Source of the DNA: Selenomonas sputigena
GTDB lineage: Bacteria; Bacillota; Negativicutes; Selenomonadales; Selenomonadaceae
DNA: 64,000 nucleotides
Direction: 5' to 3'
Assembly: GCF_026015965.1 (NCBI RefSeq)
Contig: NZ_CP110383.1
Location: 62,001-126,000 of the forward strand
Below are positions 10,726 through 42,247 of this stretch, one piece after another (the stretch's first letter is position 1; every line of letters begins with the position of its first letter). The notes under the pieces are model-generated. The model was given only the letters and a program-made list of their open reading frames with translations, ran no database searches and was not told the DNA's origin. Both the position numbers and the translations under genes were made by a program.

Positions 10726-10794
10726 TATTGCCCCGCGCAGGAAGCGCTCGGCAAACAAGGGATTGCATATATTTTATCTATGGAGGGAGAAACT

Positions 10795-11322: not shown

Positions 11323-11334
11323 GGAGGAAGAATT

Positions 11335-15507: not shown

Positions 15508-15559
15508 CAAAGAGCAAAAAAGAACCTCCCCAGAAGGGGAGGTTCTTTTTTGCTCTTTG
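15508..15559. terminator. Rho-independent terminator after flagellin (bidirectional symmetry)
   Basis: A perfect 24-base-pair inverted repeat with an AGAA loop; the core is AACCTCCCC/GGGGAGGTT flanked by A6 on the left and T6 on the right. It is strong on either strand and separates the flagellin transcript from the glycosyltransferase operon, whose promoter begins five bases later. Confidence 0.92.
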
Positions 15560-15620: not shown

Positions 15621-17000
15621 ATGAAAATATCTGCCTGCTATATCACGAAAAATGAAGAGCGAAATATCGCCCGCTCCTTGCAGAGTCTGGCAGACGCTGT
15701 GGATGAAATCGTCGTGGTCGATACGGGATCGACGGATAAGACAAGAGAAATTGCTGAGGCGCTGGGAGCGCGCGTATTGGATTTTTCCTGGCAGGACGAT
15801 TTCTCCGCTCCGAGAAATTTCGCTGTTGAAGCAGCTTCAGGGGATTGGATTGTTTTTCTTGATGCAGATGAGTGGTTTGTCGAACCGCAAGGTGTGCGCA
15901 GTACGATTGAAGCGGAGATCGGCGCCGCTCCCAATCTGGAAGCGATGATGCTTCTGCGCCTGAATCTCGACGACCAAGGCAAAGAATTTTCACGCGACAG
16001 AAGTCTGCGCATATTTCGCAATGCACCATGGCTGCGCTATCATGGAAAGATTCATGAAAATGTATACAGCAGCAAAGGCCGTCTGCGAGTTTCCTATCCC
16101 GAAGGACTCGTACTCAATCATGACGGTTATCGCGGCGGCATGATTGAGGAAAAAATCGAACGCAACCTGTCCCTGATGCTCAAGGACATTGAGAAGAATG
16201 GTCATGCGGAGCGATTTTATCCCGGACTTACGGATTGTTTCTACCACCTTCGACAATACGAACGCTGTTTGGAGATGGCATTTTCGGGGTTGGAATTCCC
16301 TACGTATCCACGAGATACCCGCAGGGGCCTTTATCATGTTGCACTGGAAGCCATGCGATCCCTTAGCCTTCCCTTGGACTTGATGTGTGATCTTATGGAT
16401 TGTGCACAGGCGGAGTTTCCTCATCTTCCCGAATTCTATGCGGAAAAAGGCATTCTTCTTTCGTGTAGGGGAGAACTGGAGGAGGCAGTTTGTAATTTGG
16501 AGAAAGCAGCCGTCCTTTTTGAGGCTGCTCGGGAAGATGAGGTGTTTCCGTACTTTTATAAGGGCGGTGGGATTGCCTATGAACGTCTTGCACAGATCTA
16601 TCGCGTTCTGGGGCGTTATGATTTGGCAGCCTTGAATTTTCTGAAAAGCAGCTGCTTTCATGGAGGGATGCCTCCTTCTGCAAAGGAACTATTGGAAGAA
16701 ATGTGCCGCATTTGTGGGATTCAGATGAAGGAATTTGCAGGGAATGGGAGCACGATGATGCTTCCTGCCTTGCTGCAGAAGCGTTTGCTGCAGGGCAGGC
16801 GGTCGGCTTCACCTGCTATGGCACGGATGTGCCGCTGTGGTTTGCTTCTTGTGGCAGCGGCTCGTGTGCCGCGGGCAAAGGCAGAAATGCTCGCTTTTTT
16901 GCCAAAGACTTTGCAGGAAAAGTGGAACGGCTATGAGATTGTGAAGAAGAAAAAGGAGATCGATGATGCGCATATCGGCATGCTGGATTACACGAAATGA
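15621..17000 (+). CDS. GT2 glycosyltransferase with C-terminal helical-repeat region
   Basis: A 459-residue protein. Residues 1-230 form a GT-A fold domain of family 2: ISACYITKNEERNIARSLQS, the nucleotide-binding VVVDTGSTDKT, DDFSAPRN and the metal-binding FLDADE (DxD-like) motif. The rest contains TPR-like helices. Such enzymes transfer a sugar from a nucleotide donor in the cytoplasm. GGGAGG lies just upstream of ATG 15621. It is AT-richer than the flagellar genes and overlaps the next gene by about 35 bases. As the first gene behind a sigma-28-like promoter, it is a candidate for flagellin glycan assembly; substrate unknown. Confidence 0.85.
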   Translation: MKISACYITKNEERNIARSLQSLADAVDEIVVVDTGSTDKTREIAEALGARVLDFSWQDDFSAPRNFAVEAASGDWIVFLDADEWFVEPQGVRSTIEAEIGAAPNLEAMMLLRLNLDDQGKEFSRDRSLRIFRNAPWLRYHGKIHENVYSSKGRLRVSYPEGLVLNHDGYRGGMIEEKIERNLSLMLKDIEKNGHAERFYPGLTDCFYHLRQYERCLEMAFSGLEFPTYPRDTRRGLYHVALEAMRSLSLPLDLMCDLMDCAQAEFPHLPEFYAEKGILLSCRGELEEAVCNLEKAAVLFEAAREDEVFPYFYKGGGIAYERLAQIYRVLGRYDLAALNFLKSSCFHGGMPPSAKELLEEMCRICGIQMKEFAGNGSTMMLPALLQKRLLQGRRSASPAMARMCRCGLLLVAAARVPRAKAEMLAFLPKTLQEKWNGYEIVKKKKEIDDAHIGMLDYTK

Positions 17001-19794
17001 GGCGAAGAATATAAGCTCTTCCATCGCAAGTGTCGCAGCGAGTGTAGATGAGATTGTTGTCTACGATACAGGATCAGAGGATGATACGTGCCGCATCGTA
17101 GAGAAGATTCCCAAGGCAAAGCTCTTTCGAGGTTCTTGGCATGACGATTTTGCAGCAGCACGAAACGAGGCGCTTTCCCATGCGACAGGGGACTGGGTCG
17201 TCTTCCTCGATGCAGATGAGCGCTTTTCCGAAGAAACGCGGGGGAATCTGCGCGTCATCCTTGAAGAGGCAAAGGAATATGATGCGCTTGCCGTAAAGAT
17301 CGTGAATCTTGATATCGACGGCGAGAAGGAGCGACGAATCGATCACACCTACGTCGTGCGTGCTTTCCGGCGTTCACCTGAGATTCGCTATGTGGGGTGT
17401 ATCCACGAGCACATTGAGCGAAAGGGGGCGGAACTGCGGCTCGCATTCATCCCGGAGGCCATGTTGGTGTTGCTTCATACGGGCTATACGGAGAGCCGCT
17501 TGAAAGGAAAGGCGGAGCGCAACTTGAAACTCCTCCTGCGGGAATTGAAGCAGACGGAAAGCCCGCAGGATCTCTATCGCTATCTGGCTGAGGCGTATGA
17601 GGGGGTGGGTGATACGGAGCGCGCCCTGTACTACGCGCGGCTCGACATCGCAGACGGCCCTCGCCCCGTGCTTTTTGCGAGTCGCTGCTATCGCATGCTG
17701 CTCTACACGCTTCCTGAGGGTGAGGAGCGCACGCGTGTGCTGGAAAAGGCGCGGCGCGACTTCCCGAGCCTGCCGGAGTTCCATGCCGAATATGCTGAGC
17801 ATCTCGCACGCGATTTGAGATTTTCGGAGGCTGCAGAGGTGATGCAGCAGGCCTTTCGCGCCTATGCTGAGCATGAGGAAGATGGCGAAGCCATGGAGTT
17901 TGATGATGCGATGCTCGCCGTGGCGAAGGAGCGCACAGCCCTTTGGCAGAAGATCGCGGAAAGGGAGAAGACGCTCAAAATTTCAGCCTGCACCATCGCG
18001 CGCGATGAGGCGCATGATTTGCCACACTGGCTCGAAAATACGGCGGTTTATAGCGATGAGCGCATCGTCGTTGATACGGGATCCGAAGATGATACGAAGG
18101 CACTCGCGGAGGCGGCGGGGGCGCGTGTTTACGATCATCCATGGAGCGATGATTTTGCAGCAGCAAAGAATGCGGCTCTTGCTCATACAACGGGAGAATG
18201 GGTCGCTTTTCTCGACGCCGATGAGTATTTTGTTGCACCGCAGCAGGTGCGGCCGTATCTTGCATCGCTTTCCGTCGAGCAGCCGGAGATTGAGGCAGTC
18301 ATGCTGACGATCGTAAATCTCGACGAGGATGATCGACTCAGGGAGATCCAGCGTTTTCCAGCCATACGCCTCTTTCGACGCAGGAAGGATATTGTCTTTG
18401 CCGGCCGAATTCACGAAACCATTTGCAAGATGGATGGCAAACTTGAGATCAAAATGGAAAGAAGGCATCTAACCGTCCATCACCTCGGCTACTCATCGGG
18501 GCGCGTGATGAAGAAGATGGAGCGCAATTTTGCCCTGCTGCAGGACGATATCAAAGAAAACGGCGAACAGGACAGGCACTACCGTTATTTGGCAGACTGC
18601 TACATCGCTTTTGGCGATTGGAGGAAGGCGCTGTACTATGCTCTGGCGGCACTCGATTCTTCAGCGAATTCCATCGGCAGTGACAGCGATTTGTATCGAA
18701 CGGCGCTGCGCGCGATGCGCGAATGCCGAATGTCGGCTCAGGATATGCTTTCCCTGGCAGAAAAAGCGGCGGAGAAATTTCCAAGTCTGCCCGATTTTCA
18801 TGCGGAAAAAGGCAGGATTCTCTTTTCGTCAGGAAGACTCAGGGATGCTGCCGCTTGTCTTGAACAGGCACTCGATATTTTTACACATGAAGATGGCGCA
18901 GGACAGGCCACGCGCTTTGCTGCGGAGGCTCCCGTCGCCTGGCGCGAGCTGGCAGAGATTCGCCTCGCTCTCGGCGAGAAGGAAAAGGCGAGGGAGGCGA
19001 TCGCTTCCTCTCTGCACCTCAACCCATTCAGTGAGGAAGCGCTCGGACTCTGGCGGAGAATCTGGGGTGTTCCTTGCGGTGAGGAACTGTATAAGTTCTT
19101 CCCGCATACGCCTGAAGCGCTGCGCTTTCTGGCACGTTGGGCGATTTCTGCGGGAGAGGCGCAGCTCGCTGCTGATGCTGCTGCAGAGTTTACGGACCTT
19201 TCGGGTGAATATTTGCCCGAGGCGGCATGCCTCGCCGCTTGGCAGGTGCAAGATTGGGAAAAAATGGCGGATGTGGCGATGAAGAACGTTGCCGCTGTGA
19301 TGCAAGAACTCTTCCTCGTGCTGCTGCTGGCGCTGGCCAAAGGGGATTCCGTGCGTGTACATGCATCGGAGATGCAGCCGCTTCTGCCCGAGCTGCAGGA
19401 GATCCTGCGCAGCTTTGCTAAGAAGCAGCCGATCAGCGCAGAGCTTTGGGAAGAGTGCCGAGCGTTCCTTCCCGTGCTCGCACAAAGACTGCCGAACGAA
19501 GTCCTGTTGCAATACGTCAGTATCCTTTCTGCACTGACGCCGGAAAAGAAGTGCGAGGCGGCGACGCTCCTTTTGGCAGCGGAAAAGTGGCAAGCCGCTA
19601 TGGCTCTTTTGGCGGAGATTCCTGCAGATTCTCCAGCAGCAGATGATACCTTTTGGCATGACACAGGCGTCGCTTTTTATCAATTGGGAGATTTTCCTGC
19701 AGCGCGCGAGTGTTTTTCGCGTGCGCGGGCTTTGGGTTCAGCGGCGAAAGATATCGCCGCCTATGAAGCATGGATGAAGGGAGTCGGAGCATGA
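16966..19794 (+). CDS. Tandem two-domain GT2 glycosyltransferase with TPR region
   Basis: About 942 residues with two complete GT2 domains in one chain. Domain 1 (residues 1-230) has SACWITRNEAKNISSSI, VVYDTGSEDDT, DDFAAARNEAL and FLDADERF; domain 2 (from about 337 to 570) repeats the pattern with SACTIARDEAHDLPHW, VDTGSEDDT, DDFAAAKNAAL and FLDADEYF. TPR-like helices lie between and after them. AAGGAG at 16953-16958 suits ATG 16966 slightly better than 16963. Both domains keep the acidic motif, so both may be active. Its stop overlaps the next start as ATGA. Confidence 0.87.
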   Translation: MRISACWITRNEAKNISSSIASVAASVDEIVVYDTGSEDDTCRIVEKIPKAKLFRGSWHDDFAAARNEALSHATGDWVVFLDADERFSEETRGNLRVILEEAKEYDALAVKIVNLDIDGEKERRIDHTYVVRAFRRSPEIRYVGCIHEHIERKGAELRLAFIPEAMLVLLHTGYTESRLKGKAERNLKLLLRELKQTESPQDLYRYLAEAYEGVGDTERALYYARLDIADGPRPVLFASRCYRMLLYTLPEGEERTRVLEKARRDFPSLPEFHAEYAEHLARDLRFSEAAEVMQQAFRAYAEHEEDGEAMEFDDAMLAVAKERTALWQKIAEREKTLKISACTIARDEAHDLPHWLENTAVYSDERIVVDTGSEDDTKALAEAAGARVYDHPWSDDFAAAKNAALAHTTGEWVAFLDADEYFVAPQQVRPYLASLSVEQPEIEAVMLTIVNLDEDDRLREIQRFPAIRLFRRRKDIVFAGRIHETICKMDGKLEIKMERRHLTVHHLGYSSGRVMKKMERNFALLQDDIKENGEQDRHYRYLADCYIAFGDWRKALYYALAALDSSANSIGSDSDLYRTALRAMRECRMSAQDMLSLAEKAAEKFPSLPDFHAEKGRILFSSGRLRDAAACLEQALDIFTHEDGAGQATRFAAEAPVAWRELAEIRLALGEKEKAREAIASSLHLNPFSEEALGLWRRIWGVPCGEELYKFFPHTPEALRFLARWAISAGEAQLAADAAAEFTDLSGEYLPEAACLAAWQVQDWEKMADVAMKNVAAVMQELFLVLLLALAKGDSVRVHASEMQPLLPELQEILRSFAKKQPISAELWEECRAFLPVLAQRLPNEVLLQYVSILSALTPEKKCEAATLLLAAEKWQAAMALLAEIPADSPAADDTFWHDTGVAFYQLGDFPAARECFSRARALGSAAKDIAAYEAWMKGVGA

Positions 19795-22181
19795 AGCTTT
19801 CCGCCTGCGTGATCGTGAAGAATGAAGAAGAGAATATCGGCACGTGGCTCTCTTCAATGAAGAAGATTGCTGACGAGATGATTGTCGTCGATACTGGCTC
19901 GACCGACCGTACGGTCGAGATGGCGAAGGCGGCGGGCGCACGCGTCTTTCATCATGCGTGGCAGAACGATTTTGCCGCCGCGAAGAACTGTGCGCTGGAA
20001 AAGGCGAAGGGCGACTGGATCCTCTTCCTTGACGCTGACGAATATTTCAGTCCACAGACAATTGCCAAGGTGCGCCCGCTCCTCATGGAGGTGGAGAAGA
20101 GCACGAAGCCCATCGTCGGCGTAATCTGCCGGCTCGTCAACATTGACAAGGATCAGGGAAACCGCTTTACGGGAGCGATCTTCCAACTGCGCATTTTCCG
20201 CAATAGCCCCGACCTTCGCTACGAGGGCAAGATTCATGAGCATGTTGTAGATGCTCATAGGGCGGAGCATGAGATGTTCGCGACACCGGAACTTGTGATT
20301 TTCCATACGGGCTATTCACAGCATCTCGTACAAAAAAAGCTTGAGCGCAACCTCGAATTCCTTCGACAAAAGGAAGAAACGGAAGGCGAGTCGACGGATG
20401 ACGCTCTGCATTATATGGATTGCTACTATGGCTTGGGCGATTTTGCCAAGGCGGAAGAATATGCACGCAGAGCGATTGAAAGCAAGATCATCTATCTGGG
20501 GCGTGAAGGTGCTGAGTACTGGGGATTGACGCGCGCTTTACTTGCCCAGAAACGGCCGAAGGAAGAGATCGTAGCCGTCCTGGAAAAGGCGATGGAGAAG
20601 TACCCTGATCTCGCAGAGTTTCCCATGGAGTATGGACTCCTGGCGTGGGAGGAGCACGACTATCTGCTTGCAGAAAAGATGTTCCGCCTTGGCATGAAGC
20701 TCAAGGAGAAGGCGCCTGCGTCGCTTCGATCGGACAACTCGCTGCAGATGTTTCCCTTTGTCTGTGCATCTCTTGGAAAGATAGCGGCAATGCAGGGAAG
20801 AGCGGACGAGGCATTCGATCTTTTCCTGCGCGGTCTCCGGGAATATCCGTATGACGAGGGGCTTTTCCTCGCCCTTTACGATGCTCTCGCAGGCCAGGAA
20901 GCGGCGGACGTCATCGCACTCCTCGATACGCTCTACGACAAGGAGCACGATGCGCTGTTTCTTACGAAGGCTTTACGCGCACGGGAGGCGACGCCGATCG
21001 TGCTTTACTATGCGCGATTTTTGCCGCAGGATCAGAAGGATGAAGCATATCTCTACATGGCGGCGAATCGCATGGATGCCGCAGCGGTGGAATTTTCTGC
21101 ACGGCTCAAGAGCTTTTCTTCTGTGCTCGCCGAGGCGAAGGGCGAGATGCACATCTTGCCCGAGATGGATGGCGCCTCGCTCCTGCTTGCCGATGCTTAC
21201 CGAAAGCAGTGGCGCAGGAAGGCGCTGCCTCTCGTCAGCATCATGATCCCGACGTACAACCGCCCGAAGTTCTTTGAGCTTGCGCTCCAAAGCGCCCTGC
21301 GGCAGACGTATGAGAATCTTGAGATTATCGTTTGCGACAACAGCGCGGACGATGAGACGGAAGCTCTTGTCGAAAAGTATCTGAACGATTCAAGGCTGCA
21401 ATATCATAGAAACAAGGCGGCAAAGACGAAAGAGGAGAACTTCGTGCCGTTTGAGCAGCTTGCCAATGGTGAGTACCTGCAGTGGCTGATGGACGACGAC
21501 ATCCTGCTCGACGGCAAGGTCGAGAAGATGATGCAGGCGTTTCGCGAGAATCCTGCGGCGAGACTAGTGACTTCGAGGCGCGCTCAGATTGATGGGGAGG
21601 GCAGGGTGCAACCGAATCCTTGTACGGAGGGAGTGCCCGAAAGTGAAGCGGATTATTCCGTATTCGAGGGCGAGGCCGTCGGCAAGGAGACGCTGCTCGG
21701 CTGCAGAAACTTCCTTGGTGAGCCATCGGCTGTCCTCTTCCGGCGAGCTGATCTCAAGCACCACTATTGGCACGCCGAGAGCCGCGGCTACAAGACAATT
21801 TCTGACGTGGCGATGTGGCTGGAACTTTTGGAAGGAGGGGACTGCGTTTTCTTCCAGAAGCCCCTGAGCTGCTATCGGCGTCATGCGGCGCAGGAGGGGC
21901 AGCAGGAAGCCGTCATCCTCTTGAGCCGCTTGGAGTGGCTGCGACTCATCAAGGAGTATTTTGAGCGCCGCATATACATCACGACGGAAGAAGAGTATAT
22001 ACAGCCATTGGAGCTTCTTTACGGCGAGTATCTGACGGAGCGCGATCGTTTTGACCGTGCGGCGGCAGGCGATTATTGGCGTAAGTATGAAGATGCGATG
22101 CGCGGCGTGCGGCGCATCTTGGCGAAGCTGAAGGAAAAGGGGCGTGCGCATGGCAGGCAAAGAGGAAAAGGAAAAAAATAG
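19791..22181 (+). CDS. GT2-TPR-GT2 glycosyltransferase
   Basis: A 796-residue protein with two different GT2 domains. The N-terminal one (residues 1-230: SACVIVKNEEENIGTWLSS, VVDTGSTDRTVE, FLDADEYF) is the same subtype as its neighbours. A TPR region follows, then a classical GT2 domain from about residue 478 (LPLVSIMIPTYNRPKFFELA, CDNSADDETEAL, WLMDDDILLD, CYRRH near the end). ATG 19791 overlaps the upstream stop and GGAG precedes it. The DDD motif shows the second domain keeps its metal ligand. Overlaps the giant GT41 gene by 32 bases. Confidence 0.87.
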   Translation: MKLSACVIVKNEEENIGTWLSSMKKIADEMIVVDTGSTDRTVEMAKAAGARVFHHAWQNDFAAAKNCALEKAKGDWILFLDADEYFSPQTIAKVRPLLMEVEKSTKPIVGVICRLVNIDKDQGNRFTGAIFQLRIFRNSPDLRYEGKIHEHVVDAHRAEHEMFATPELVIFHTGYSQHLVQKKLERNLEFLRQKEETEGESTDDALHYMDCYYGLGDFAKAEEYARRAIESKIIYLGREGAEYWGLTRALLAQKRPKEEIVAVLEKAMEKYPDLAEFPMEYGLLAWEEHDYLLAEKMFRLGMKLKEKAPASLRSDNSLQMFPFVCASLGKIAAMQGRADEAFDLFLRGLREYPYDEGLFLALYDALAGQEAADVIALLDTLYDKEHDALFLTKALRAREATPIVLYYARFLPQDQKDEAYLYMAANRMDAAAVEFSARLKSFSSVLAEAKGEMHILPEMDGASLLLADAYRKQWRRKALPLVSIMIPTYNRPKFFELALQSALRQTYENLEIIVCDNSADDETEALVEKYLNDSRLQYHRNKAAKTKEENFVPFEQLANGEYLQWLMDDDILLDGKVEKMMQAFRENPAARLVTSRRAQIDGEGRVQPNPCTEGVPESEADYSVFEGEAVGKETLLGCRNFLGEPSAVLFRRADLKHHYWHAESRGYKTISDVAMWLELLEGGDCVFFQKPLSCYRRHAAQEGQQEAVILLSRLEWLRLIKEYFERRIYITTEEEYIQPLELLYGEYLTERDRFDRAAAGDYWRKYEDAMRGVRRILAKLKEKGRAHGRQRGKGKK

Positions 22182-25100
22182 GCTGCGCGAAAGAATCGGC
22201 GACTGCCTTGCCGTACGCGACTTCGATGGTGCGATGGACGCTGTGCGTGAACTGGCGGAGGATAAGTCGGCAGAGGCAGAAGCGCTCGGTGCCGCCGCGA
22301 GCATCCATATCGAGGCGGGCGACTTTGCGGGGGCAGCTCCTCTCGTTGCGGCGCTTCTGCAGAAGGAGCCGCAGTCCGTCTACGGCGCGTTCCTCCATGC
22401 GCGAATCCTCTTCGCTGAGGGGAAACTGATCTCGGCATATGACGCGCTGACGTCGCTCCTGAAGCGCGAGGAAGGACTCGCACCGGTATATGTCGAGAAG
22501 GTCTGCAACCTTCTAGGGCAGACGGCGCGTATCATGGGATTGGCAGAAGAGGCTGCTGCCGCTTACAAAAAGGCGGCGGCTGCGGCAGAGACTTCCGAGC
22601 TTCGCAGGATGGAGTGGAGCAATGTTCTCTTCGCGCTGCATTTTTTGCGCGTGCCGCAGCAAGAAGTGTATCGTGCACATTGCGCCTACGCGGAGTTTTT
22701 CCGCGATGTGACGCCGTTCCTCCACCGCCTTCGACAGAAGCGGCGCAAGATTCGCATCGGCTATATCTCGCCCGACTTGCGCCGTCATGTCGTGCTGCGC
22801 TTCGCCGAGGCGCTTTTCACGCATTACGATGCCGAGCGCTTCGAGGTCTACTGCTACCAGAACGGTCCTGAGGACGAGGAGAGCCGCCGCCTCATGCATC
22901 TCGTCGACAAATGGCACAACATCTCGCCGCTCTCGCCACAGGAGGCGGCGCGGCGCATCTACGAGGACGGCATCGACGTCCTCGTAGATCTCGCTGGTCA
23001 TACGCGCGGCACGGCGCTTCCTGTGCTCGCTCATCGCCCTGCGCCCGTGCAGATGTCAGGCATCGGCTACTTCGCGACGACGGGGCTTCCCACGGTCGAC
23101 TATATGATCGGCGATGTATGGCTCGACGGCGCACCGGCGGGTATCAAGGAAGCGCCGTTTTTTACGGAGAAACTGCTCGTGCTCGAGCATACACATCTCT
23201 GCTATACACCTGCAGCGGATGCGCCGCCTGCGGGTACTGCGCCGTGCATGGAGAAGGGATTCGTGACCTTCGGCAGTTTCAATGCTTTCGCCAAGGCTTC
23301 AGACGAAGTGCTCGCGGTGTGGGTGCAGATCCTTGCAGCCGTTCCGAGCTCGCGCCTGCTCTTGAAATCTGCCGCCTTTTCGAGTGAGGAGGGACGCACT
23401 GCCGCGCTCGAACGCTTGCGGACGGCTGGCTTCGATCTCGAGCACGTCGAGCTTCGCCCCGATACCCATGAATACCTGCATGAGTATCATGATGTCGACA
23501 TCGCTCTCGATCCGTTCCCCTATCCCGGCGGCGGCACGACGTTCGACGCGCTCTACATGGGTGTTCCCGTCGTCACGCTCAAGGGAGATTCGCACGGCGC
23601 GCGCTTCGGCTTCAGCATCCTCGCCAATCTCGGGTTGGAGGATCTGGCGGCAGCGGATGCGGCAAGCTATGTAGAGAAAGCTGTGGCGCTGGCGAAGGAG
23701 GCGGAGCTTCTTGCCGCCCTGCACGGGAATCTGCGTTCCATGATGGAAAATTCGCCTCTGATGGACGGCGCTTCTTACGTTGCCGCTCTCGAAGCCGGCT
23801 ATGAAACGGCACTTGCCGCGCACGATGCGACTGAGGCGCGGCCTTCGCCCGAAGGAGCGGCGAGGCTCGCCATTGCGCTCAAACGCTTTTTCGCGGCGGG
23901 GGACTTGCGTCAGGCGCTTGCCGCTGCCGACGCGCTCCTTGCTGCAGGCAGGGCATCGCGCGATGTATGGCGGCTTCTGGCAGGGCTTTACGTCGATGCC
24001 GAAGAGGGGGAGAATGCCGCGCGTGCGGCTGGACTGTACCTTGCAGACAAGGCGGATGGCTTTGGATTTCTCTTGCGTGCGCGCGCCGTATTTCTGCTCG
24101 GCCGTTGGCGTGATGCGCTCGAAGATGCACGCCGCGCACTCGCCCTCGGCACACTCTCACGGGGGGAGCAGGTGCTCGCGCACAACCTCGTCGCGCGCAT
24201 CTGCCGCAGTATGGGTGAGATTGAAGAAGCTCTGTGCGCGGAGAAAGCGGCGTTTGATGTCGCCGATACGCTCGAAGACAGGGCGGCATCATGGAGCAAC
24301 TACCTCTTCGCCCTGCACTATGTCGAGCGCGAGCCGCGCTTCCTGCTCGATGCGGCACGCCGCTACGGGGAGCTTTTCAAAGATGCGCCGCGATGGAAGG
24401 GAACGCCGAAGCGGCGCGAGAAGATTCGCGTCGGCTACATTTCGCCCGACTTCACGTTCCATATCGTCGCACTCTTCAGCTTCGCCTTTTTCACGCACTT
24501 CGACAAAGTCCGCTTCGAGGTTTTTGGCTACTCGCTTGCAGGTGAGAATGCGATGGCAGAGGAGCTTTCTTCTCATGCGTCGGCTTGGCGCTATGTGGGC
24601 GCCGAGACTCCCGCAAAGATTGCGGAGAGGATTCGCGCCGATGAGATCGACATCCTCTTTGACCTCGCGGGGCACAGCGCAAACAATGCGCTTCCCGTGC
24701 TCGCGCTGCGTCCTGCACCCGTGCAGATCTCGGGTATTGGCTACTTCGATACGACTGGGCTTTCCGCTGTTGACTACTTCCTGACGGACGTGCATACTGA
24801 TCCCGTTGGGGAAAACGACGCCTGTTTTACAGAGAAGCTTCTGCGCTTGCCCGAGAGCCACCTTTGCTACCGTGCGAGCCGCGCGGGGAAAGATTCACGG
24901 ATTGCGCCGCTGCCTGCGCGGGAGAAGGGCTATATTACGTTCGGCTGCTTCAACAACTTCGCGAAGGTCACAGACCGGGTGCTGCATCTTTGGGCGAAGA
25001 TTCTCCGCACCGTGCCGCGCTCGCGTCTCTTTCTCAAGACGGCAGCGTTCGATGCGGCGGACGGCAGGCAGGAGGCGCTCCGCCGCATCGAGGCGGCGGG

Positions 25101-27207
25101 CATCGACCTCGCACGCATCAAGATGGAAGGCCATACGGCAGAGTACCTCGCGGCATACGTCGAGGTCGATATCGCGCTCGATACATTTCCATACCCGGGC
25201 GGTGGTACGACGTGCGACGCACTCTACATGGGCGTGCCCGTTGTCACGCGGACGGGCGTGCGCCATGGCGCACGCTTCGGCGTGAGCATTTTGGCAAATC
25301 TTGGCCTTGTCGACGCCTGCTGTGCGCATACGGCGGACGAATATGTGGAGAAAGCATGTGCGCTTGCCGCTGATGTACAGGCGCTCGCTGACCTGCGGCG
25401 TACCTTGCGCATGCGCATGGAGGCGTCTCCCCTCATGGACGCCGCGCGCTACATGCTCCATCTCGAAGCGGCGTATGAAAAGATCTGGGCGCATCGGCTT
25501 GGAGAAGATGAGGGAGAGGTACGCAAGGCGCTTGTGCTCAAGATGGAAAAAGAGACGGATGCGGCCTTCAACGCACGCGATTGGCGGCGTTTTCTCCCTG
25601 TCGCCGCACGTCTTATGGCTCTCCATGCTGCCTCGGGGCGGCTCTTGATGAGCATGGGCTTTGCCGCCCTGCAGCTGCAGCAAGTGGCACGGGCACGCCT
25701 TTATCTTGAAATGGCGCTTGAGAAGACGCAGGAGGAAGAGCCGGAAATCCTGCAGCTTCTCGCCGAAGCGCAGAAGCTGTCGGGCGATCATAAGGCGGCG
25801 CTCGCGAGTTTGAAAGAGGCGGCTGCGCTGACGGAAAAGACGCACGAGACGCGCCCCTTCCGCTATCGTCTTGCGCTTGCACATGGTCATGCCGCATACA
25901 TGCTCGGCCATGCCGACGAGGCTGCTGCAGCCTATCGTGAGGCTGCCGACTTAACAGAGGATCTTCGCGCACGCACGGCAGCCTACAGCTCGCATCTGCT
26001 TGCTTTGCACAATACAGCGATTGGGCGGGAGGCGCTTTTTGCTGCGCATCGGGATTATGAGAGGATTCTCGAAGGGATCGAGCCGCTTGCCGCGCGTATT
26101 TTACAGACACGCAGCAAAATTCGCATCGGGTATGTGTCGCCCGATTTTCGCCGACACGTCATGTTCTCCTTCATCTACGGCCTTTTCGTACGCTATGACA
26201 GCACGCATTTTGAGGTCTATGCGTATTCGCTCGCAGAGGAGGAGGACGGCTTCACCGCTGCCCTAAAGGAGCACGCGACGGCATGGCGCGACGTCGCGGG
26301 ACTTTCCTATGCGGAGATCGCCGAAAGGATTCGTGCCGATGAGATCGATGTCCTCGTCGATCTTGCAGGGCACAGCGCGGGCGGCGCACTCCCCATATTC
26401 TGCTATCGTCCCGCTCCTGTGCAGGTTTCGGGTCTTGGCTATGTCAATACGACGGGGCTTTCCTCGGTCGATTACTTCCTCACGGACGATATCGTTGACC
26501 CGCCGGAAAGACACGACGCGTTCTTCACGGAAGAGCCTGTATGCCTGACGAGCCAGTTCCTCTACACGGCGAAGAGTGATGTGCCGAATCCTTCGAGTGC
26601 ACCATGCAGGGTGAAGGGATATATCGTTTTCGGTGTTTTCAACCACTGGTACAAGGTCACGGAAGAAATGCTCTTTTGCTGGCGCGAGATCTTGGAGCGC
26701 GTGCCGAAGAGTCGTCTGCTCATCAAGTGCCAGGAGTTTTTTGCGCCAGAGATGCGAGAAGAGGTGCTGCGCCGCATGGCAAAGGTGAAGATCGACATTG
26801 AGCGTGTCGACCTGGAGCCTGCGACGAGCGACTACATGGAGCGATACAGGACGGTCGACATCGCGCTCGACACCTACCCATACCCGGGCGGCGGCACGAC
26901 GTGTGACGCGCTCTACATGGGGGTGCCCGTCGTCACGCGCTATGGCAGGCGGCGCGGCTCGCGCTTCGGACTGTCACTGCTGAAGAACGTGGGCGTTTCG
27001 GAGCTTGCTGCTGCTGACGCGAGGTCATACATTGAGAAAGCCGCGGCGCTCGCTCATGATGCAGATCTTCTCGATCAGCTGCACCGGACGCTTCGGGCGC
27101 GTCTTGCTGCTTCGCCCGTCATGCAGGCTGCGAACTATATGGAGGAGTTGGAACGTTTCTATTGCACGGCAGTCGAACGAAAGAAGGAGGAGTCGGACGA
27201 AGGATGA
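22150..27207 (+). CDS. Triple-domain SPINDLY/OGT-like (GT41) glycosyltransferase with TPRs
   Basis: A 1685-residue protein built from three consecutive units, each a TPR stretch plus a GT41 catalytic domain. The domains begin near residues 200 (KIRIGYISPDLRRHV), 757 (KIRVGYISPDFTFHI) and 1322 (KIRIGYVSPDFRRHV). Each keeps the active-site His in this motif, an FNxFxK/FNHWYK block with the donor-binding Lys, VDLAGH/DLAGH, and PYPGGGTT(F/C)DALYMGVPVVT. GT41 enzymes modify Ser/Thr of proteins in the cytoplasm, with UDP-GlcNAc (OGT) or GDP-Fuc (plant SPY) as donors. Single catalytic domains are usual; three in one chain is exceptional. ATG 22150 is preferred over GTG 22144. Confidence 0.9.
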   Translation: MAGKEEKEKNRLRERIGDCLAVRDFDGAMDAVRELAEDKSAEAEALGAAASIHIEAGDFAGAAPLVAALLQKEPQSVYGAFLHARILFAEGKLISAYDALTSLLKREEGLAPVYVEKVCNLLGQTARIMGLAEEAAAAYKKAAAAAETSELRRMEWSNVLFALHFLRVPQQEVYRAHCAYAEFFRDVTPFLHRLRQKRRKIRIGYISPDLRRHVVLRFAEALFTHYDAERFEVYCYQNGPEDEESRRLMHLVDKWHNISPLSPQEAARRIYEDGIDVLVDLAGHTRGTALPVLAHRPAPVQMSGIGYFATTGLPTVDYMIGDVWLDGAPAGIKEAPFFTEKLLVLEHTHLCYTPAADAPPAGTAPCMEKGFVTFGSFNAFAKASDEVLAVWVQILAAVPSSRLLLKSAAFSSEEGRTAALERLRTAGFDLEHVELRPDTHEYLHEYHDVDIALDPFPYPGGGTTFDALYMGVPVVTLKGDSHGARFGFSILANLGLEDLAAADAASYVEKAVALAKEAELLAALHGNLRSMMENSPLMDGASYVAALEAGYETALAAHDATEARPSPEGAARLAIALKRFFAAGDLRQALAAADALLAAGRASRDVWRLLAGLYVDAEEGENAARAAGLYLADKADGFGFLLRARAVFLLGRWRDALEDARRALALGTLSRGEQVLAHNLVARICRSMGEIEEALCAEKAAFDVADTLEDRAASWSNYLFALHYVEREPRFLLDAARRYGELFKDAPRWKGTPKRREKIRVGYISPDFTFHIVALFSFAFFTHFDKVRFEVFGYSLAGENAMAEELSSHASAWRYVGAETPAKIAERIRADEIDILFDLAGHSANNALPVLALRPAPVQISGIGYFDTTGLSAVDYFLTDVHTDPVGENDACFTEKLLRLPESHLCYRASRAGKDSRIAPLPAREKGYITFGCFNNFAKVTDRVLHLWAKILRTVPRSRLFLKTAAFDAADGRQEALRRIEAAGIDLARIKMEGHTAEYLAAYVEVDIALDTFPYPGGGTTCDALYMGVPVVTRTGVRHGARFGVSILANLGLVDACCAHTADEYVEKACALAADVQALADLRRTLRMRMEASPLMDAARYMLHLEAAYEKIWAHRLGEDEGEVRKALVLKMEKETDAAFNARDWRRFLPVAARLMALHAASGRLLMSMGFAALQLQQVARARLYLEMALEKTQEEEPEILQLLAEAQKLSGDHKAALASLKEAAALTEKTHETRPFRYRLALAHGHAAYMLGHADEAAAAYREAADLTEDLRARTAAYSSHLLALHNTAIGREALFAAHRDYERILEGIEPLAARILQTRSKIRIGYVSPDFRRHVMFSFIYGLFVRYDSTHFEVYAYSLAEEEDGFTAALKEHATAWRDVAGLSYAEIAERIRADEIDVLVDLAGHSAGGALPIFCYRPAPVQVSGLGYVNTTGLSSVDYFLTDDIVDPPERHDAFFTEEPVCLTSQFLYTAKSDVPNPSSAPCRVKGYIVFGVFNHWYKVTEEMLFCWREILERVPKSRLLIKCQEFFAPEMREEVLRRMAKVKIDIERVDLEPATSDYMERYRTVDIALDTYPYPGGGTTCDALYMGVPVVTRYGRRRGSRFGLSLLKNVGVSELAAADARSYIEKAAALAHDADLLDQLHRTLRARLAASPVMQAANYMEELERFYCTAVERKKEESDEG

Positions 27208-28667
27208 AAGATTTTTCAAAAATCGCTGGAGAGCTTGCTGTTTTGCAGGACAAGGGGAGATGGGAGGCGGGAATCGAGCGCGTAGAATACCTGCTTAGAA
27301 GGCGTGCGTCAGAGCTTGAACGCGGCGAGAAGAGTTTCCTCTGCGGCAGGCTCGGCTACTTCCTGCATTTCGTTGGCCGCATTGAGAAGGCGGCTGCTGC
27401 TTATCAAGAGGCGGTCGCCCTTGCGCCGTACCTTGCACAGCAGAGAAAGCTCTACAGTGACTACCTCATGATTTGTCACTATCTGCCGCAGATCGGTGAC
27501 GAGGAGCTTGCCATACGCCATTTCACCTATAATCAGTTTTTCCGTTCGGAGGAGGAACTGCATCACGAGCGAGAGATTCACCGCCGCCACGAGAAGATCC
27601 GTGTAGGCTACCTCTCGTCGAACTTCAAGACGCACATCATGAGCTGCTTCATGATGCAGCTGCTCGCCATCGCTGACCGCAGTCGTTTCGAGGTCTATTG
27701 CTACGACTTTGGCAACGATTCCGATGCGGCGGCCGAGCAGATGAGATCCTTCGGTAACATTTGGCGCAGCATCGCCCTGCCTGAGGCGAAGGATCGCGCG
27801 CGGGCGATTGCTGCAGATGAGATCGACATTCTCTTCGATCTCAGTGGTCATACGGACGGCGGACATGGTTTGGCGACGCTTGGCTACAAGGCGGCGCCCG
27901 TGCAGCTCACGGGAATCGGCTACATGAGCACGTCGGGGCTCAAGGCGGTCGACTACTGCCTGTCGGATATTTTTCTAGATCCAGAGGGCAAGGGCGATGC
28001 GTATTTCTCCGAAAAACTTCTGCGCCTTCCACATTCACACTTCTGCTATACGCCGTTCGAAGCCGTGTTCAAAAGTACTATTGACTGGCAGCCGCATGAA
28101 CGACTGGTGTTCGGCTGCTTCAATAACTCCGCAAAAGTTTCCGACGATATGCTGCGCCTCTGGCACACGCTCCTTATGCGTGTGCCGGACTCCAAGCTCG
28201 TGCTGAAGGCGTGGAAGCCTAAGAACCTGCGCAAAAGGGCACTTTCTCTCGGCTATCGTCCCGATCAGATCGAGGTGCGCCCCATGACGCTTGACTATAT
28301 CCACGAGTATATGGACATGGATATAGCACTCGATACCTTTCCCTATACGGGCGGCGGCACGACGTGCGAGGCACTCTACATGGGAACGCCCGTCATCACG
28401 CTCGCGGGCACGCGCCATGGCACACGCTTCGGATTGTCGCTTCTGGAAAATGTCGGCCTTGGCGAACTGGCGGCACAGACTCCGACAGAATATATCGAAA
28501 AAGCTGCGGCGCTCGCTTCGGACAGAGAATTGCTGACAGCGCTGCACCGAAACTTGCGTCCCATGATGCAGCGATCCCCCGTGATGGACGGCAGAGGCTA
28601 TGTGCGTGAGGTCGAGGCGATGTATGAGAAGATTTGGAAGGAATGGCTCGATGGGGAGAATCGTTGA
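27204..28667 (+). CDS. SPINDLY/OGT-like (GT41) glycosyltransferase
   Basis: A 487-residue protein starting with an ATGA overlap on the triple-domain gene. An N-terminal TPR-like region (to about residue 125) precedes a single GT41 catalytic domain: KIRVGYLSSNFKTHI with the conserved His, DILFDLSGHTDGGHG, FGCFNNSAKVSDDML with the Lys, and PYTGGGTTCEALYMGTPVIT near residue 375. It differs from the triple domains at YTGGG and CEAL, so it has diverged and may use a different acceptor or donor. Last gene of the first glycan transcription unit. Confidence 0.88.
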   Translation: MKDFSKIAGELAVLQDKGRWEAGIERVEYLLRRRASELERGEKSFLCGRLGYFLHFVGRIEKAAAAYQEAVALAPYLAQQRKLYSDYLMICHYLPQIGDEELAIRHFTYNQFFRSEEELHHEREIHRRHEKIRVGYLSSNFKTHIMSCFMMQLLAIADRSRFEVYCYDFGNDSDAAAEQMRSFGNIWRSIALPEAKDRARAIAADEIDILFDLSGHTDGGHGLATLGYKAAPVQLTGIGYMSTSGLKAVDYCLSDIFLDPEGKGDAYFSEKLLRLPHSHFCYTPFEAVFKSTIDWQPHERLVFGCFNNSAKVSDDMLRLWHTLLMRVPDSKLVLKAWKPKNLRKRALSLGYRPDQIEVRPMTLDYIHEYMDMDIALDTFPYTGGGTTCEALYMGTPVITLAGTRHGTRFGLSLLENVGLGELAAQTPTEYIEKAAALASDRELLTALHRNLRPMMQRSPVMDGRGYVREVEAMYEKIWKEWLDGENR

Positions 28668-28845: not shown

Positions 28846-29715
28846 TTGTCAAATTGGAATACGAGAAATTCGCAGGGAACGGTGATCTCGGCAGATGAGA
28901 TGAAGCGCAAGCTTGCTGCGCAGATGGCAGATGAAGAGTATGCAGAGGCGCTTGGCACGGTTGCGGCGATGATTGAAAAGGGGATCAAGGATGCCGACGC
29001 CTTTTATGATGCAGCGTACAGCTACTTCATGAGCGGTGACTATGAACGCGCAACACAGTGGGTAGACAACACGCTGAGCCTTATGCCGCAGCACGTCAGG
29101 GCGCGCATCCTGCTCGCTCGCATCTGCCTCTTGGAAGAGCGCACGTCGGATGGCCTTGCCATTTTCGAATTCGTGCTGAAGAATTATGCGGCATCCCTTT
29201 CGACAGAAGATAAGGAAGACCTTTCCGAGGTGCTCGATTACTATGCTGCGACGAAGAAAGATGAGATCCGTGCAGGTTATCCCGCCATCGCGCATTTCCT
29301 GCAGCTCGATCATGCGGCATCGGAGAAGCAGACGGAGGCATTTCAGCCGTTGGCACAGCAGGTGCAGCGCATCGAAATGCCGTTGGCGCAGCAGAAGCAG
29401 TCTGTGCAGCAAAGTGCGGGGGATGATGAGAATGAGGCTATGCGCTTGACGCAGGAAATTCTTGGGAAGGATGTCGCGCTTTCGGAGAAGGTGCGTCTTT
29501 TGAATTCGTTCGCAGGGGGGTTCTTCCTCGCAGGTTCTTTCACTGCAGCGAAGCATCTCTTGAAGCAGGCGCTTGGTCTCGATGCGCACGATGAGATGAC
29601 GCTCAAAAACATGGGATATACACTCGCTGCCCTTGGAGAGCGCGATGCAGCGCTGGAACTTGCCGCTAAGATGAAAGTGCCCGACTTTGGCCTTCTGGTC
29701 GCTGTCCGTGGCTGA
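28846..29715 (+). CDS. TPR-repeat protein
   Basis: A 289-residue cytoplasmic protein, entirely helical, with TPR-like units at about residues 45-110 (DAFYDAAYSYFMSGDYERAT, then RARILLARICLLEERTSDGL) and 215-285 (AGGFFLAGSFTAAKHLLKQA). The middle (150-190) is Gln-rich (QVQRIEMPLAQQKQSVQQ) and probably a linker. The start is TTG 28846 with AGGAGG eight bases upstream. No catalytic domain is visible. Its gene overlaps the following GT41 gene, so it may act as an acceptor-presenting partner of that enzyme; this is inference. Confidence 0.72.
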   Translation: MSNWNTRNSQGTVISADEMKRKLAAQMADEEYAEALGTVAAMIEKGIKDADAFYDAAYSYFMSGDYERATQWVDNTLSLMPQHVRARILLARICLLEERTSDGLAIFEFVLKNYAASLSTEDKEDLSEVLDYYAATKKDEIRAGYPAIAHFLQLDHAASEKQTEAFQPLAQQVQRIEMPLAQQKQSVQQSAGDDENEAMRLTQEILGKDVALSEKVRLLNSFAGGFFLAGSFTAAKHLLKQALGLDAHDEMTLKNMGYTLAALGERDAALELAAKMKVPDFGLLVAVRG

Positions 29716-31174
29716 GGCGCACTCTTTTGCGGAGGCGATGATAAGCGTTCGTGCCCTCCTTGCTGAAGGCAGGGGAGGAGCCGCGCTTGAGGCGCTGCGC
29801 CGCTTGGCGCGAGCGCCTCTTTCGCCGCGTGCCGCCTTCGAACTGGCGGCGGCGCAGGCATCTGCCTACACAGCCTTGGGCGATGCGCACGGAGTCGTCG
29901 AGGCGTACCGTGCAGCATGCTCGTCGGGCGGTGCTCTGCCGGAAGAACATCGCATGGCGTACAGCAACTATCTCTTTGCGCTTCACTACTTGCCGGGCGT
30001 GGAAGATGCCCGGCTTTTTCGTGAACACTGCGGCTTTGCGGCGCTTTTTGAGGGCGTGAGGCAATATGCGCACGATGCGCTGCTTCACCGCCATGAGAGA
30101 TTGCGCATCGGATATATTTCGCCGGATTTCGCCATGCAGATCAATGCTTTCTTCATCATGCCGCTTCTTGTTCATCGGACGAAGGAGCGCTTTGAGGTCT
30201 ACTGCTATGACACGCGCGGCGCAGGCGACAGCGTGACGGAGCAGATGCGCTCTCTCGCGGATGTCTGGCGAGATGTGTCGTCTTTGCCTGCAGCGGAGCA
30301 GGCGGCATGCATCCACGCGGACGAGATCGACATCCTCGTCGATCTTTCCGGTCATGCAGCGGGCGGAGAAACTCTCGTCGCTCTCGCCCATCGCCCCGCT
30401 CCCGTGCAGGTGACGGCGATCGGCTGGTTCGATACGACGGGGCTGCCTGCGATCGACCATGTGCTTGCTGACCGCCTTTCGGCTACGGCAGACAACGAAG
30501 AGCTTTTCCTCGAAAAACCGCTGCGTCTGCACGATCACTCCCTGCTCTGTTACATGCCGCCGTCCTCGGTGCAGTATGTGACGAAGCAGCGCGAGCGACA
30601 CGCGGCGCCGGTGTTCGGCAGCTTCAATAATTTTTACAAGATTACGCACGAGCAGCTTCTTCTTTGGCGTGAGATTGTAGAGCGTGTGCCGGGCGCACGC
30701 CTCGTGCTCAAGAATACGGCAGACAGCGAGGTGCAGGAGCACCGCATGCGCCGCATGGCGAAGCGTGCGGGCTTCGCCGAGGGAGTGGTCGAATTTCGGC
30801 GTGCGTCGAGCGATTACCTCGCGCAGTATCTCGACATCGATATCGCACTCGATACTTACCCTTATCCGGGCGGCGGCACGACATGCGACGCGCTCTACAT
30901 GGGCGTGCCTGTCGTCACGCGCTATGGCAGGCGCTTTGGCTCGCGCTTTGGCCTGAGTCTTTTGTCGGCTGCAGGGTTTTCGGAGCTTGCGGCAGCGACG
31001 CCTGAGGAGTATGCGGCGAAGGCCGTGTCGCTCGCTCGTGATACGGAACTTCTGACTGCGCTGCACGAGACTTTGCGTGTGCGTATGGAAGAGTCGCCTT
31101 TGATGGATGGCGCTGGCTATGCGCGCGAGGTTGAGGCGCTCTATGAAGAAGCGTGGCGGGCATGGCTGCAATAG
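29708..31174 (+). CDS. SPINDLY/OGT-like (GT41) glycosyltransferase with altered His motif
   Basis: About 488 residues: short TPR-like N-terminus, then one GT41 domain (LRIGYISPDFAMQINAFFI near residue 132, DEIDILVDLSGHAAGG, FGSFNNFYKITHEQL, and PYPGGGTTCDALYMGVPVVT near 378). The Lys motif and the GGGTT donor loop are kept, but the position of the conserved His in ISPDF-x-x-H is Gln here. That may alter or abolish activity. The start is uncertain: GTG 29708 overlaps the upstream stop, ATG 29738 has GGAGG too close. Confidence 0.85.
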   Translation: MAEAHSFAEAMISVRALLAEGRGGAALEALRRLARAPLSPRAAFELAAAQASAYTALGDAHGVVEAYRAACSSGGALPEEHRMAYSNYLFALHYLPGVEDARLFREHCGFAALFEGVRQYAHDALLHRHERLRIGYISPDFAMQINAFFIMPLLVHRTKERFEVYCYDTRGAGDSVTEQMRSLADVWRDVSSLPAAEQAACIHADEIDILVDLSGHAAGGETLVALAHRPAPVQVTAIGWFDTTGLPAIDHVLADRLSATADNEELFLEKPLRLHDHSLLCYMPPSSVQYVTKQRERHAAPVFGSFNNFYKITHEQLLLWREIVERVPGARLVLKNTADSEVQEHRMRRMAKRAGFAEGVVEFRRASSDYLAQYLDIDIALDTYPYPGGGTTCDALYMGVPVVTRYGRRFGSRFGLSLLSAAGFSELAAATPEEYAAKAVSLARDTELLTALHETLRVRMEESPLMDGAGYAREVEALYEEAWRAWLQ

Positions 31175-31204: not shown

Positions 31205-32974
31205 ATGAACAAGATTATCGCTATATCCCTAGTCGCGGACTGTGCTGACATCATCGAAAGCTTCGTGCGTCACACGCTGACGTACGCGGATGAGATGCTC
31301 GTGGTCGACCATGCGGCGGCGGACGGCACGGGAGATGTCCTGCACGCACTTCAAGAGGAAGGACTGCCCCTTTGCATTGAGCGCTACGAGGCGGCGGAGC
31401 TTCGCCATGACGAGATTATGACGGCTGTGATGCACAGGGCGTTTGACGAGTATGATGCCGACATCGTTGTTCCTGTTGATGCCGATGAGTTTCTCGTAAC
31501 ACAGGACGCGGCGAAACCTTGCCGTGCTGTCCTTTCGCATTTGCGCACCGATGTGACATTCTGCGCATGGCATTGGATGTATGAATTGGAGAAGCCGGAA
31601 GAAGATGCAGGAAAGTTTCTGCTCTCGCGTCCGCTGCGACGAAAGAAGCGGCATGAGCCGGTACAGAAGGCGATCATTGGGCGCGAGGCTGCATGTTCGT
31701 ATCCGTTGTTGGCGCAGGGCACGCACTATCTCTACCGCATGGAAGGAGAGGAGCGCGTGCCGGCGCCTGCGCTCCCCATCAGCTTCCTGCACTTCGCGCA
31801 TTTTCAATGGCGCGGCACTCTGCATACGGCGGTCAAGGTCCTGAACGGTTGGATTGGCAATGCGGCGAAGTATTCCGTGCACACGGCGCGCTGCTATTAT
31901 TGGAAGGAGCACTTCGACACGGTATTCGAGGGCAGAGTGCCGCCCGTCGCGCTTTCGCCGGAGGAAAGCGAGGCAGTGCAGGGATTGGTCTTGCCGCAGG
32001 GACAGATTGAACTGCACTATACAAAAGGTGCGGCATTCTCTCCGCTGCAGAGTCTGATGCGTCTATCTGAGCAGCTCGCGCAGGATTTTGCCGAGGAGCG
32101 TGTGCTTGCGCGCCGGAGGCTCGTGAGCATTGTCGTGCCGTATCTTGGAGACTTTTCCTTATGGCAGCGTTCTTTGGAAAGCGCTGCAGCACAGACGTAT
32201 CCGCATATTGAAGTCGTTGCGCTTGATTTCGTGGGCGATGAAGCGCGCCTGCAGGAATCTCTGGAGGCCTTGGGAGCGCCGCATGGAATTGTTCCCGCCG
32301 TCTCTTCGGGATGGGGCGCACGGCTTTCCGGCACAGTGCGCGGAGCATACGTTCAATGGATCGTACCCGGCGACCGGCTTCTTGCCGAGAAGGTCGTGCG
32401 GATGGTGACGACTTTGGAACTTGACGATGAACTTGATTTCGTGATTGCCGATCCAGAAGAAGCGGCGAATGCGGAGAATGATGCGTTGGAGAGCTTCGCC
32501 TTTCGCATGAGGCAGTCGCACTGCATCGTCGCCTCTGGCGCATGGCATCGCAGTTTCGTACTCTCGGAAGGGCGTTCGCCCGCAGGAGGGCTGTCGGGTG
32601 CACTGCTGCGCCGCAGCGTGCTGGACGAGTGCGCGTGGTTGGAACCGGCGTTCTTCCAGGGGCGCTTTTTCCCTCTGGCAGCGTTTGTCCTGCTCTTCCA
32701 AACGCGGGCGGATTTCCGTGCCGGCGTCTTCGAGATTCCTCTGCTCGCCCGCGGAATGCAGGATGCAGGCGAGATTTTATGGCATCCGGCGGAATGGGCG
32801 GCATTGCTCCTTTCGTGCGACGGCGAGGTTGACATGACGGCACGAAAGAGAGCTAGGGAGGCTCTGGCGCAGCAAGCGTATGACATCTTTGCGCGCGAAG
32901 CTCTTTGCAGCAGAGCGGATTTTGCGTGTGCGCGCCGCGTGTTTGAGGAACTTTTTGCGTCTCTTCCCGAATGA
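31205..32974 (+). CDS. Two-part GT2-like glycosyltransferase
   Basis: A 589-residue protein. The N-terminal part resembles the Glyco_tranf_2_4 subtype: IIAISLVADCADIIESFVRH, VVDHAAADGTGDVL and the acidic VPVDADEFLV motif. From about residue 303 a second GT2-like domain begins (RLVSIVVPYLGDFSLWQRSL, AAAQTYPHIEVVALD), but its acidic motif is replaced by YVQWIVPGDRLL, so this half may be inactive or bind rather than transfer. GGAGGAG lies before ATG 31205. Sits between the GT41 gene and the phosphonate-like genes. Confidence 0.78.
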   Translation: MNKIIAISLVADCADIIESFVRHTLTYADEMLVVDHAAADGTGDVLHALQEEGLPLCIERYEAAELRHDEIMTAVMHRAFDEYDADIVVPVDADEFLVTQDAAKPCRAVLSHLRTDVTFCAWHWMYELEKPEEDAGKFLLSRPLRRKKRHEPVQKAIIGREAACSYPLLAQGTHYLYRMEGEERVPAPALPISFLHFAHFQWRGTLHTAVKVLNGWIGNAAKYSVHTARCYYWKEHFDTVFEGRVPPVALSPEESEAVQGLVLPQGQIELHYTKGAAFSPLQSLMRLSEQLAQDFAEERVLARRRLVSIVVPYLGDFSLWQRSLESAAAQTYPHIEVVALDFVGDEARLQESLEALGAPHGIVPAVSSGWGARLSGTVRGAYVQWIVPGDRLLAEKVVRMVTTLELDDELDFVIADPEEAANAENDALESFAFRMRQSHCIVASGAWHRSFVLSEGRSPAGGLSGALLRRSVLDECAWLEPAFFQGRFFPLAAFVLLFQTRADFRAGVFEIPLLARGMQDAGEILWHPAEWAALLLSCDGEVDMTARKRAREALAQQAYDIFAREALCSRADFACARRVFEELFASLPE

Positions 32975-33012
32975 GGCGCTGTTCCCGAAGGCAAAGGAGG
33001 ATGACTGAGATT

Positions 33013-37959: not shown

Positions 37960-37963
37960 CGTT

Positions 37964-42233: not shown

Positions 42234-42247
42234 GAGGGGGAGCGCAG

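Follow-up and report, generated by a model that had tools for sequence, protein, structure and literature searches.

Cytoplasmic modification of flagellin by a TPR-bearing glycosyltransferase is known from Caulobacter crescentus, in which FlmG uses its N-terminal TPR domain for flagellin and its C-terminal GT-B domain for transfer (PMC7591256). FlmG has one head and needs pseudaminic acid. In enterobacteria, SPINDLY-like enzymes of family GT41 are encoded beside flagellin genes in glycosylation islands, often with methyltransferase domains; each island is described as having one glycosyltransferase family, and tandem GT41 arrays are not mentioned in the available part of that study (PMC4875605). 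Arabidopsis SPINDLY, a GT41 protein O-fucosyltransferase (8dti, 7y4i), human OGT, XcOGT and T. terrenum OGT each have a single catalytic domain. More than one glycosyltransferase domain in a chain is found in Streptococcus dGT1, which adds successive sugars to a surface protein, but its two heads have unrelated folds, GT-D and GT-A (PMC5063993).

The window analyzed here, a stretch of 64,000 nucleotides of Selenomonas sputigena, encodes three TPR-GT41 modules in one chain. Like FlmG, this protein combines TPR-like and glycosyltransferase domains and is linked to flagellin, its cytoplasmic action on which is putative; unlike FlmG, it has three heads, and its donors are predicted only. The surrounding island differs from those of enterobacteria in mixing GT2, GT9 and GT41. 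In the open-access literature nothing relevant was found on tandem or multi-headed GT41 enzymes, which agrees with the view of the first-pass annotation that no triple-GT41 flagellin system has been described. Membership in GT41 is ordinary, and single-headed GT41 and FlmG-like flagellin enzymes were already known; the tandem arrangement, the depth of its conservation and the module fusions are new.

The triple GT41 protein and its gene neighborhood

The triple protein is encoded by an uninterrupted ORF that lies 6.7 kb downstream of the flagellin gene (Table 1). Pfam PF13844 (Glyco_transf_41) matches its product with 416 bits in six stretches, that is, the N- and C-terminal halves three times over, and scores above the curated 25-bit cut-off in every unit. 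The motifs KIR[IV]GY[IV]SPD (aa 200/758/1323), FNxxxK (aa 377/934/1497), GGGTT (aa 460/1017/1580) and the HGARFG-like R-F-G motif (aa 482/1039/1602) each occur three times. AlphaFold models of D1-D2 (mean pLDDT 90.4, pTM 0.74) and D2-D3 (mean pLDDT 89.4, pTM 0.83) predict that each unit consists of a helical TPR-like solenoid and, after it, a GT-B domain; the TPR call comes from these models, Pfam TPR profiles being below cut-off in this protein. D2 matched the XcOGT structure with Z 42.5 (520 residues), D3 matched SPINDLY with GDP-fucose with Z 42.7 over 539 residues and T. terrenum OGT with Z 42.2, and the D1-D2 model also fits these enzymes; human OGT matched the units as well. Mixed alignments of D1-D2 with D2-D3 were set aside, as they align D2 with itself. 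In the models a long helix closes each GT-B domain and enters the next solenoid after only a few residues, so the chain resembles tightly packed beads rather than heads on extended linkers.

Table 1. Features of the flagellin-linked glycosyltransferase island in the window.
Feature	Position	Strand	Details
Flagellin, presumed acceptor	14187..15491	+	434 aa; Flagellin_N and Flagellin_C Pfam
Strong terminator-like hairpin	15512..15555
GT2 glycosyltransferase	15621..17000	+	PF00535; matches in sister genome G001 only 38-39% identical, no close counterpart in its island
Two GT2 stretches with TPR repeats	16963..19794	+	PF00535 twice, TPR; 73% identical in G001
Two GT2 stretches	19770..22181	+	PF00535 twice; 85% identical in G001
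Triple GT41 ORF	GTG 22144 or ATG 22150 to stop 27207	+	1685 aa counted from ATG
Unit D1 (aa 1-573)	22150..23868	+	TPR-like helices aa 2-184; GT41 from aa 200; His213, Lys382, GGGTT 460-464
Unit D2 (aa 574-1120)	23869..25509	+	TPR-like helices about aa 570-742; GT41 from aa 758; His771, Lys939, GGGTT 1017-1021
Unit D3 (aa 1121-1685)	25510..27204	+	TPR-like helices about aa 1122-1306; GT41 from aa 1323; His1336, Lys1502, GGGTT 1580-1584
D4, single GT41 protein	27204..28667	+	PF13844
TPR protein	28846..29715	+	TPR profile match
D5, single GT41 protein	29687..31174	+	PF13844; Gln at the position of the catalytic His; G001 island has no equivalent
GT2-like glycosyltransferase	31205..32974	+	Profile match
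PEP mutase and cytidylyltransferase-like fusion	35048..36346, with 32971..35037		TIGR02320, 399 bits; preceded by nucleotidyltransferase and sulfatase/phosphodiesterase-like protein
RfbH	37943..39304		713 bits
CDP-glucose 4,6-dehydratase	42173..43336		428 bits

The first-pass annotation had read a single protein of 1685 residues with three TPR-like plus GT41 units, all keeping the His, Lys and GGGTT motifs. The ORF, the profile halves, the motifs and the predicted folds agree with this reading, each motif was located in D1, D2 and D3, and structure prediction, which the annotation had proposed, modeled all three units confidently as GT41 enzymes. Its count of three GT41 domains holds for the triple protein and needs correction for the island, which has five, as two single-GT41 ORFs come after the array. 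Since the pairwise identity of D1, D2 and D3 is only 45-47%, they are regarded as old paralogues. A recent tandem internal duplication is ruled out by this identity and by the separate clades, older than the genera, that the units form (see below). A sequencing fusion or assembly artefact is likewise ruled out, by an orthologue in the independent sister genome and by triple-GT41 proteins of 1522-1998 aa in other genera.

Upstream of the glycosyltransferase run are genes for FlgK, an FlgL-like protein, FlaG, FliD, FliS and flagellin, and the hairpin stands between flagellin and the run. The run then follows in the order GT2, GT2x2-TPR, GT2x2, GT41x3, GT41, with successive overlaps of 38, 25, 32 and 4 bases. 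Several relatives likewise have a single GT41 gene after the array. From its features in Table 1, D5 may be a recently gained copy that is inactive or has changed. Further downstream come the PEP mutase-cytidylyltransferase-like fusion, RfbH, CDP-glucose 4,6-dehydratase, GT9 and more GT2. The PEP mutase fusion and the genes before it, the mutase conserved to 94% in the sister island, suggest CMP-activated phosphonate decoration of the flagellin glycan; RfbH and the dehydratase, 97% conserved there, would provide synthesis of the CDP-3,6-dideoxyhexose type. Thus, phosphonate and CDP-deoxysugar chemistry is indicated within the flagellin island.

Catalytic residues and predicted donors

The units were compared with SPINDLY and XcOGT by sequence alignment. 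The catalytic His (OGT H498/SPY H495) and Lys (OGT K842/SPY K665) are present in D1, D2, D3 and also D4. The positions of the base-binding Lys (SPY K689, which binds guanosine), the fucose-binding Tyr744 and acidic residue 752 are retained in D1, D2 and D3, while the SPY N662 position is Ala in D1. The annotation had named a single intact donor pocket as the outcome that would speak against it; at the residue level the pockets of D1-D3 all appear intact, and pseudoenzyme heads are rejected for this genome at that level.

SPINDLY is the best match of the array in both sequence and structure, but the positions of its T747/T748 are Gly in the Selenomonas units. SPINDLY-like members of the family are recognized by K689/A731/Y744 and OGT/SEC-like members by L866, R904 and C917, some bacterial members being called mixed (PMC10027727). 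K and Y are found in all three units, whereas human OGT has Leu at the K689-type position; position 731 is E in D1, A in D2 and R in D3, a mixed pattern. Of the OGT/SEC-like residues only R904 is kept, in D3 alone, where it is this Arg at the 731 position. In OGT, R904 is the Arg that reads uridine. Across relatives, position 731 is mostly Glu in first units, often Ala in middle units and always Arg in third units.

Conservation among relatives separates the units further. In first units, conservation at the donor-contact columns far exceeds that of the remaining catalytic domain (0.95 vs. 0.67, permutation P 1e-4), and the same holds for third units (0.92 vs. 0.68, P 3e-4). At 80% conservation, only four columns set third units apart from the intact first and middle ones, and two of the four correspond to SPY V497 and I592 (V to M and I to L in third units; hypergeometric P 0.008), residues that line the fucose methyl-group pocket (PMC10027727). 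Units 1 and 2 thus look SPINDLY-like and unit 3 mixed. Because unit 3 has sugar-contact residues different from those of units 1 and 2, at least two donor types are likely read, and we prefer this to a single activity present in triplicate. Our best guess, leaning on distant homologues, is a 6-deoxyhexose (activated rhamnose or fucose) for units 1 and 2 and a UDP-sugar for unit 3, the sugars themselves being guesses. Elsewhere in the genome there are the dTDP-rhamnose gene RmlA and the GDP-fucose genes Gmd (546 bits) and Fcl-like (472 bits, slightly below the cut-off of 500).

The middle unit behaves differently. By the same column test its donor-contact columns have no special conservation (0.70 vs. 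0.64, P 0.23). In genus g7 (L084, L085, L086), RRR or similar replaces GGG and the Tyr and base-binding Lys are lost, so that the middle unit would be a pseudoenzyme within a working array; in g29 its Lys is changed to Arg. The outer units are intact in both. An array thus does not need three active heads, the middle pocket having no special conservation and being ruined in one genus, and the middle head may be dispensable. This could be taken further, with units 1 and 3 as the catalysts and unit 2 mainly a spacer or binding platform, given that the middle unit is also nearly lost in g10, again beside intact outer units, and that two-unit arrays are common among relatives. However, unit 2 of the window's genome retains every tested residue, and its catalytic domain has the lowest dN/dS between G000 and G001 (0.10, compared with 0.16 for D1 and 0.14 for D3, all indicating purifying selection), and we regard only two working heads as unlikely here.

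Arrays in the Selenomonadaceae and their relatives

GT41 is found in 144 of the 151 sampled genomes of the family Selenomonadaceae and in 82 of 250 sampled from the class; in a broad sample of the phylum it occurred only in the two Negativicutes genomes included. Among the regions fetched, 19 of 30 sampled Selenomonadaceae genera have at least two GT41 units in one ORF, some with one degraded unit, and such ORFs also occur in two other Negativicutes families. Triples are found in at least seven genera (g1, g7, g16, g17, g18, g24 and g29), in addition to g10 with its reduced middle unit. The triple had been presented as exceptional within GT41; with multi-unit arrays family-wide, that part of the annotation does not stand. 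That it is unique to this strain is also rejected, owing to the sister orthologue and the triples of other genera. Outside the Negativicutes, tandem GT41 was absent from what the comparison covered, namely the broad phylum sample and three Azospirillum plasmid stretches, the latter with one GT41 per ORF.

Maximum-likelihood analysis of 76 catalytic domains places first units (support 96/96), middle units (100/98) and third units (93/88, within 100/95) in separate clades, and the single GT41 following the array in another (100/99). These clades are specific to position across genera; therefore, the triple and the following single unit predate the genera. Two-unit forms look like losses, leaving D1-D2 in L021 and D2-D3 in L022. 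Arrays have also been fused with other modules, as GT2 with three GT41 units in one relative (1998 aa) and GT2 with two in Schwartzia succinivorans (1458 aa). The locus L074 (6912-13352, minus strand) encodes a 2147-aa chain of three GT2 stretches, TPRs and two GT41 units. In another Negativicutes family, L087 (9902-14674, minus strand) encodes 1591 aa in the order GT41-GT41-GT2-methyltransferase; the end of a flagellin gene lies about 4 kb upstream. L092 (3130-14441, plus strand) has four two-unit GT41 genes in succession; in each of them the first unit is degraded, whereas the second is largely intact.

The flagellin link is conserved in several genera: eight other genomes have a flagellin gene 4.0-5.7 kb upstream of the array on the same strand, and two more have one on the opposite strand at no more than about 0.5 kb. 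Some relatives' arrays are without a nearby flagellin gene within the stretch examined.

Flagellin as presumed acceptor and the order of transfer

G001, the second genome sampled from the genus, has a triple orthologue of 1689 aa, 84% identical. Its flagellin (437 aa) is 92.9% identical to that of the window, which matches the 92.5% published for flagellin SELSP_0329 of S. sputigena ATCC 35185 against the orthologue from ATCC 33150, a strain for which the name S. lamontii has been proposed (PMC13339959); from these matching identities, G001 is probably ATCC 35185, and the genome of the window probably ATCC 33150 or a strain close to it. S. sputigena flagellin is described as heavily O-glycosylated (PMC13339959) and modified at several sites (PMC7142665). 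Judged from its linkage, the glycosyltransferase island would be the natural source of this glycosylation. The modified residues are reportedly T149, S182, T199, T259 and S334, and the glycans are said to be mono- to hexasaccharides linked through Rha or GlcNAc. These five positions, which we take to be the modified sites, fall on T, S, T, T and S in the sister flagellin (chance about 2e-5). All five are S/T and conserved in the flagellin of the window.

The true substrate might instead be another secreted or cytoplasmic protein, as the genome has more single GT41 genes, one of them beside Sir2-family and ABC-transporter genes. However, linkage to flagellin is maintained in several genera and the matching flagellin is the one published as heavily glycosylated, which makes a different substrate very improbable. 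Another of these single GT41 genes is near a second, short flagellin-like gene (L095 of the same genome, 7114-9000, minus strand, and 10776-11612, plus strand).

On balance, we think it probable that the protein acts in the cytoplasm as an O-glycosyltransferase of flagellin with several heads, in which three TPR-GT41 modules in one chain apply at least two donors to the same flagellin. We infer the flagellin substrate, catalysis by each head, the donor identities and the order of action as follows. Until export, the TPR-like segments would hold flagellin monomers in the cytoplasm, and the captured flagellin would receive a sugar from every one of the three catalytic domains, unit 3 using a donor type different from that of units 1 and 2. 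The fusion would keep successive or neighboring transfers on one captured flagellin. The first-pass annotation had suggested that such a chain could add several sugars in sequence or glycosylate multiple sites processively; processivity gained no support here, and serial extension and multi-site action are both putative.

The three heads could also carry out one kind of reaction, O-glycosylation of the peptide, each at its own sites on flagellin; this would increase throughput and cover more sites, with neighboring GT2 proteins elongating the products. Known GT41 enzymes (OGT, SPINDLY) chiefly modify peptide side chains, the flagellin carries the several sites given above, five of them as reported, and the several GT2 domains of the same gene run could elongate. 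In addition, the TPR-like parts evolve faster than the catalytic domains (69-82% vs. 86-91% identity between G000 and G001), as expected if each meets a different peptide. However, a different pocket in unit 3, fixed across genera, would be needless for identical reactions, and such parallel use is in our view somewhat unlikely.

Serial building is favored over it because the pockets differ between unit 3 and units 1-2 and because GT2 and methyltransferase modules are fused to arrays in relatives. In a stricter form of the preferred explanation, the initial sugar would come from unit 1 and be extended by units 2 and 3; the glycans of up to six sugars reported for the sister flagellin would fit this order. 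Precedents are the GT41 enzyme HMW1C, which can make di-hexoses (PMC3012730), and the successive transfers of dGT1 (PMC5063993). Yet most GT41 enzymes take peptide and not sugar acceptors, and the order of action has no direct support, so that this strict sequence is a reasonable possibility with less than an even chance. A bolder extension, which we offer as speculative and rather improbable, is a collinear cytoplasmic assembly line, in which the order of glycosyltransferase and methyltransferase modules along the chain sets the order of sugars on flagellin, and swap, loss or fusion of modules rewrites the glycan. The module orders in relatives are GT2-GT41-GT41-GT41, GT2x3-GT41x2 and GT41x2-GT2-methyltransferase.

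Oral Selenomonas flagellins are among the most heavily O-glycosylated described, and no glycosyltransferase assigned to them was found in the open-access literature. The triple GT41 gene is a concrete candidate for which head-by-head predictions can be given, and it is the leading candidate for building the unusually heavy flagellar sugar coat of the Selenomonadaceae. The arrays of this family, with two or three GT41 heads and up to five glycosyltransferase stretches per chain where GT2 is fused, would be rare cases of multi-headed cytoplasmic protein glycosylation, and would serve cell-free or E. coli glycoengineering of multi-sugar proteins.
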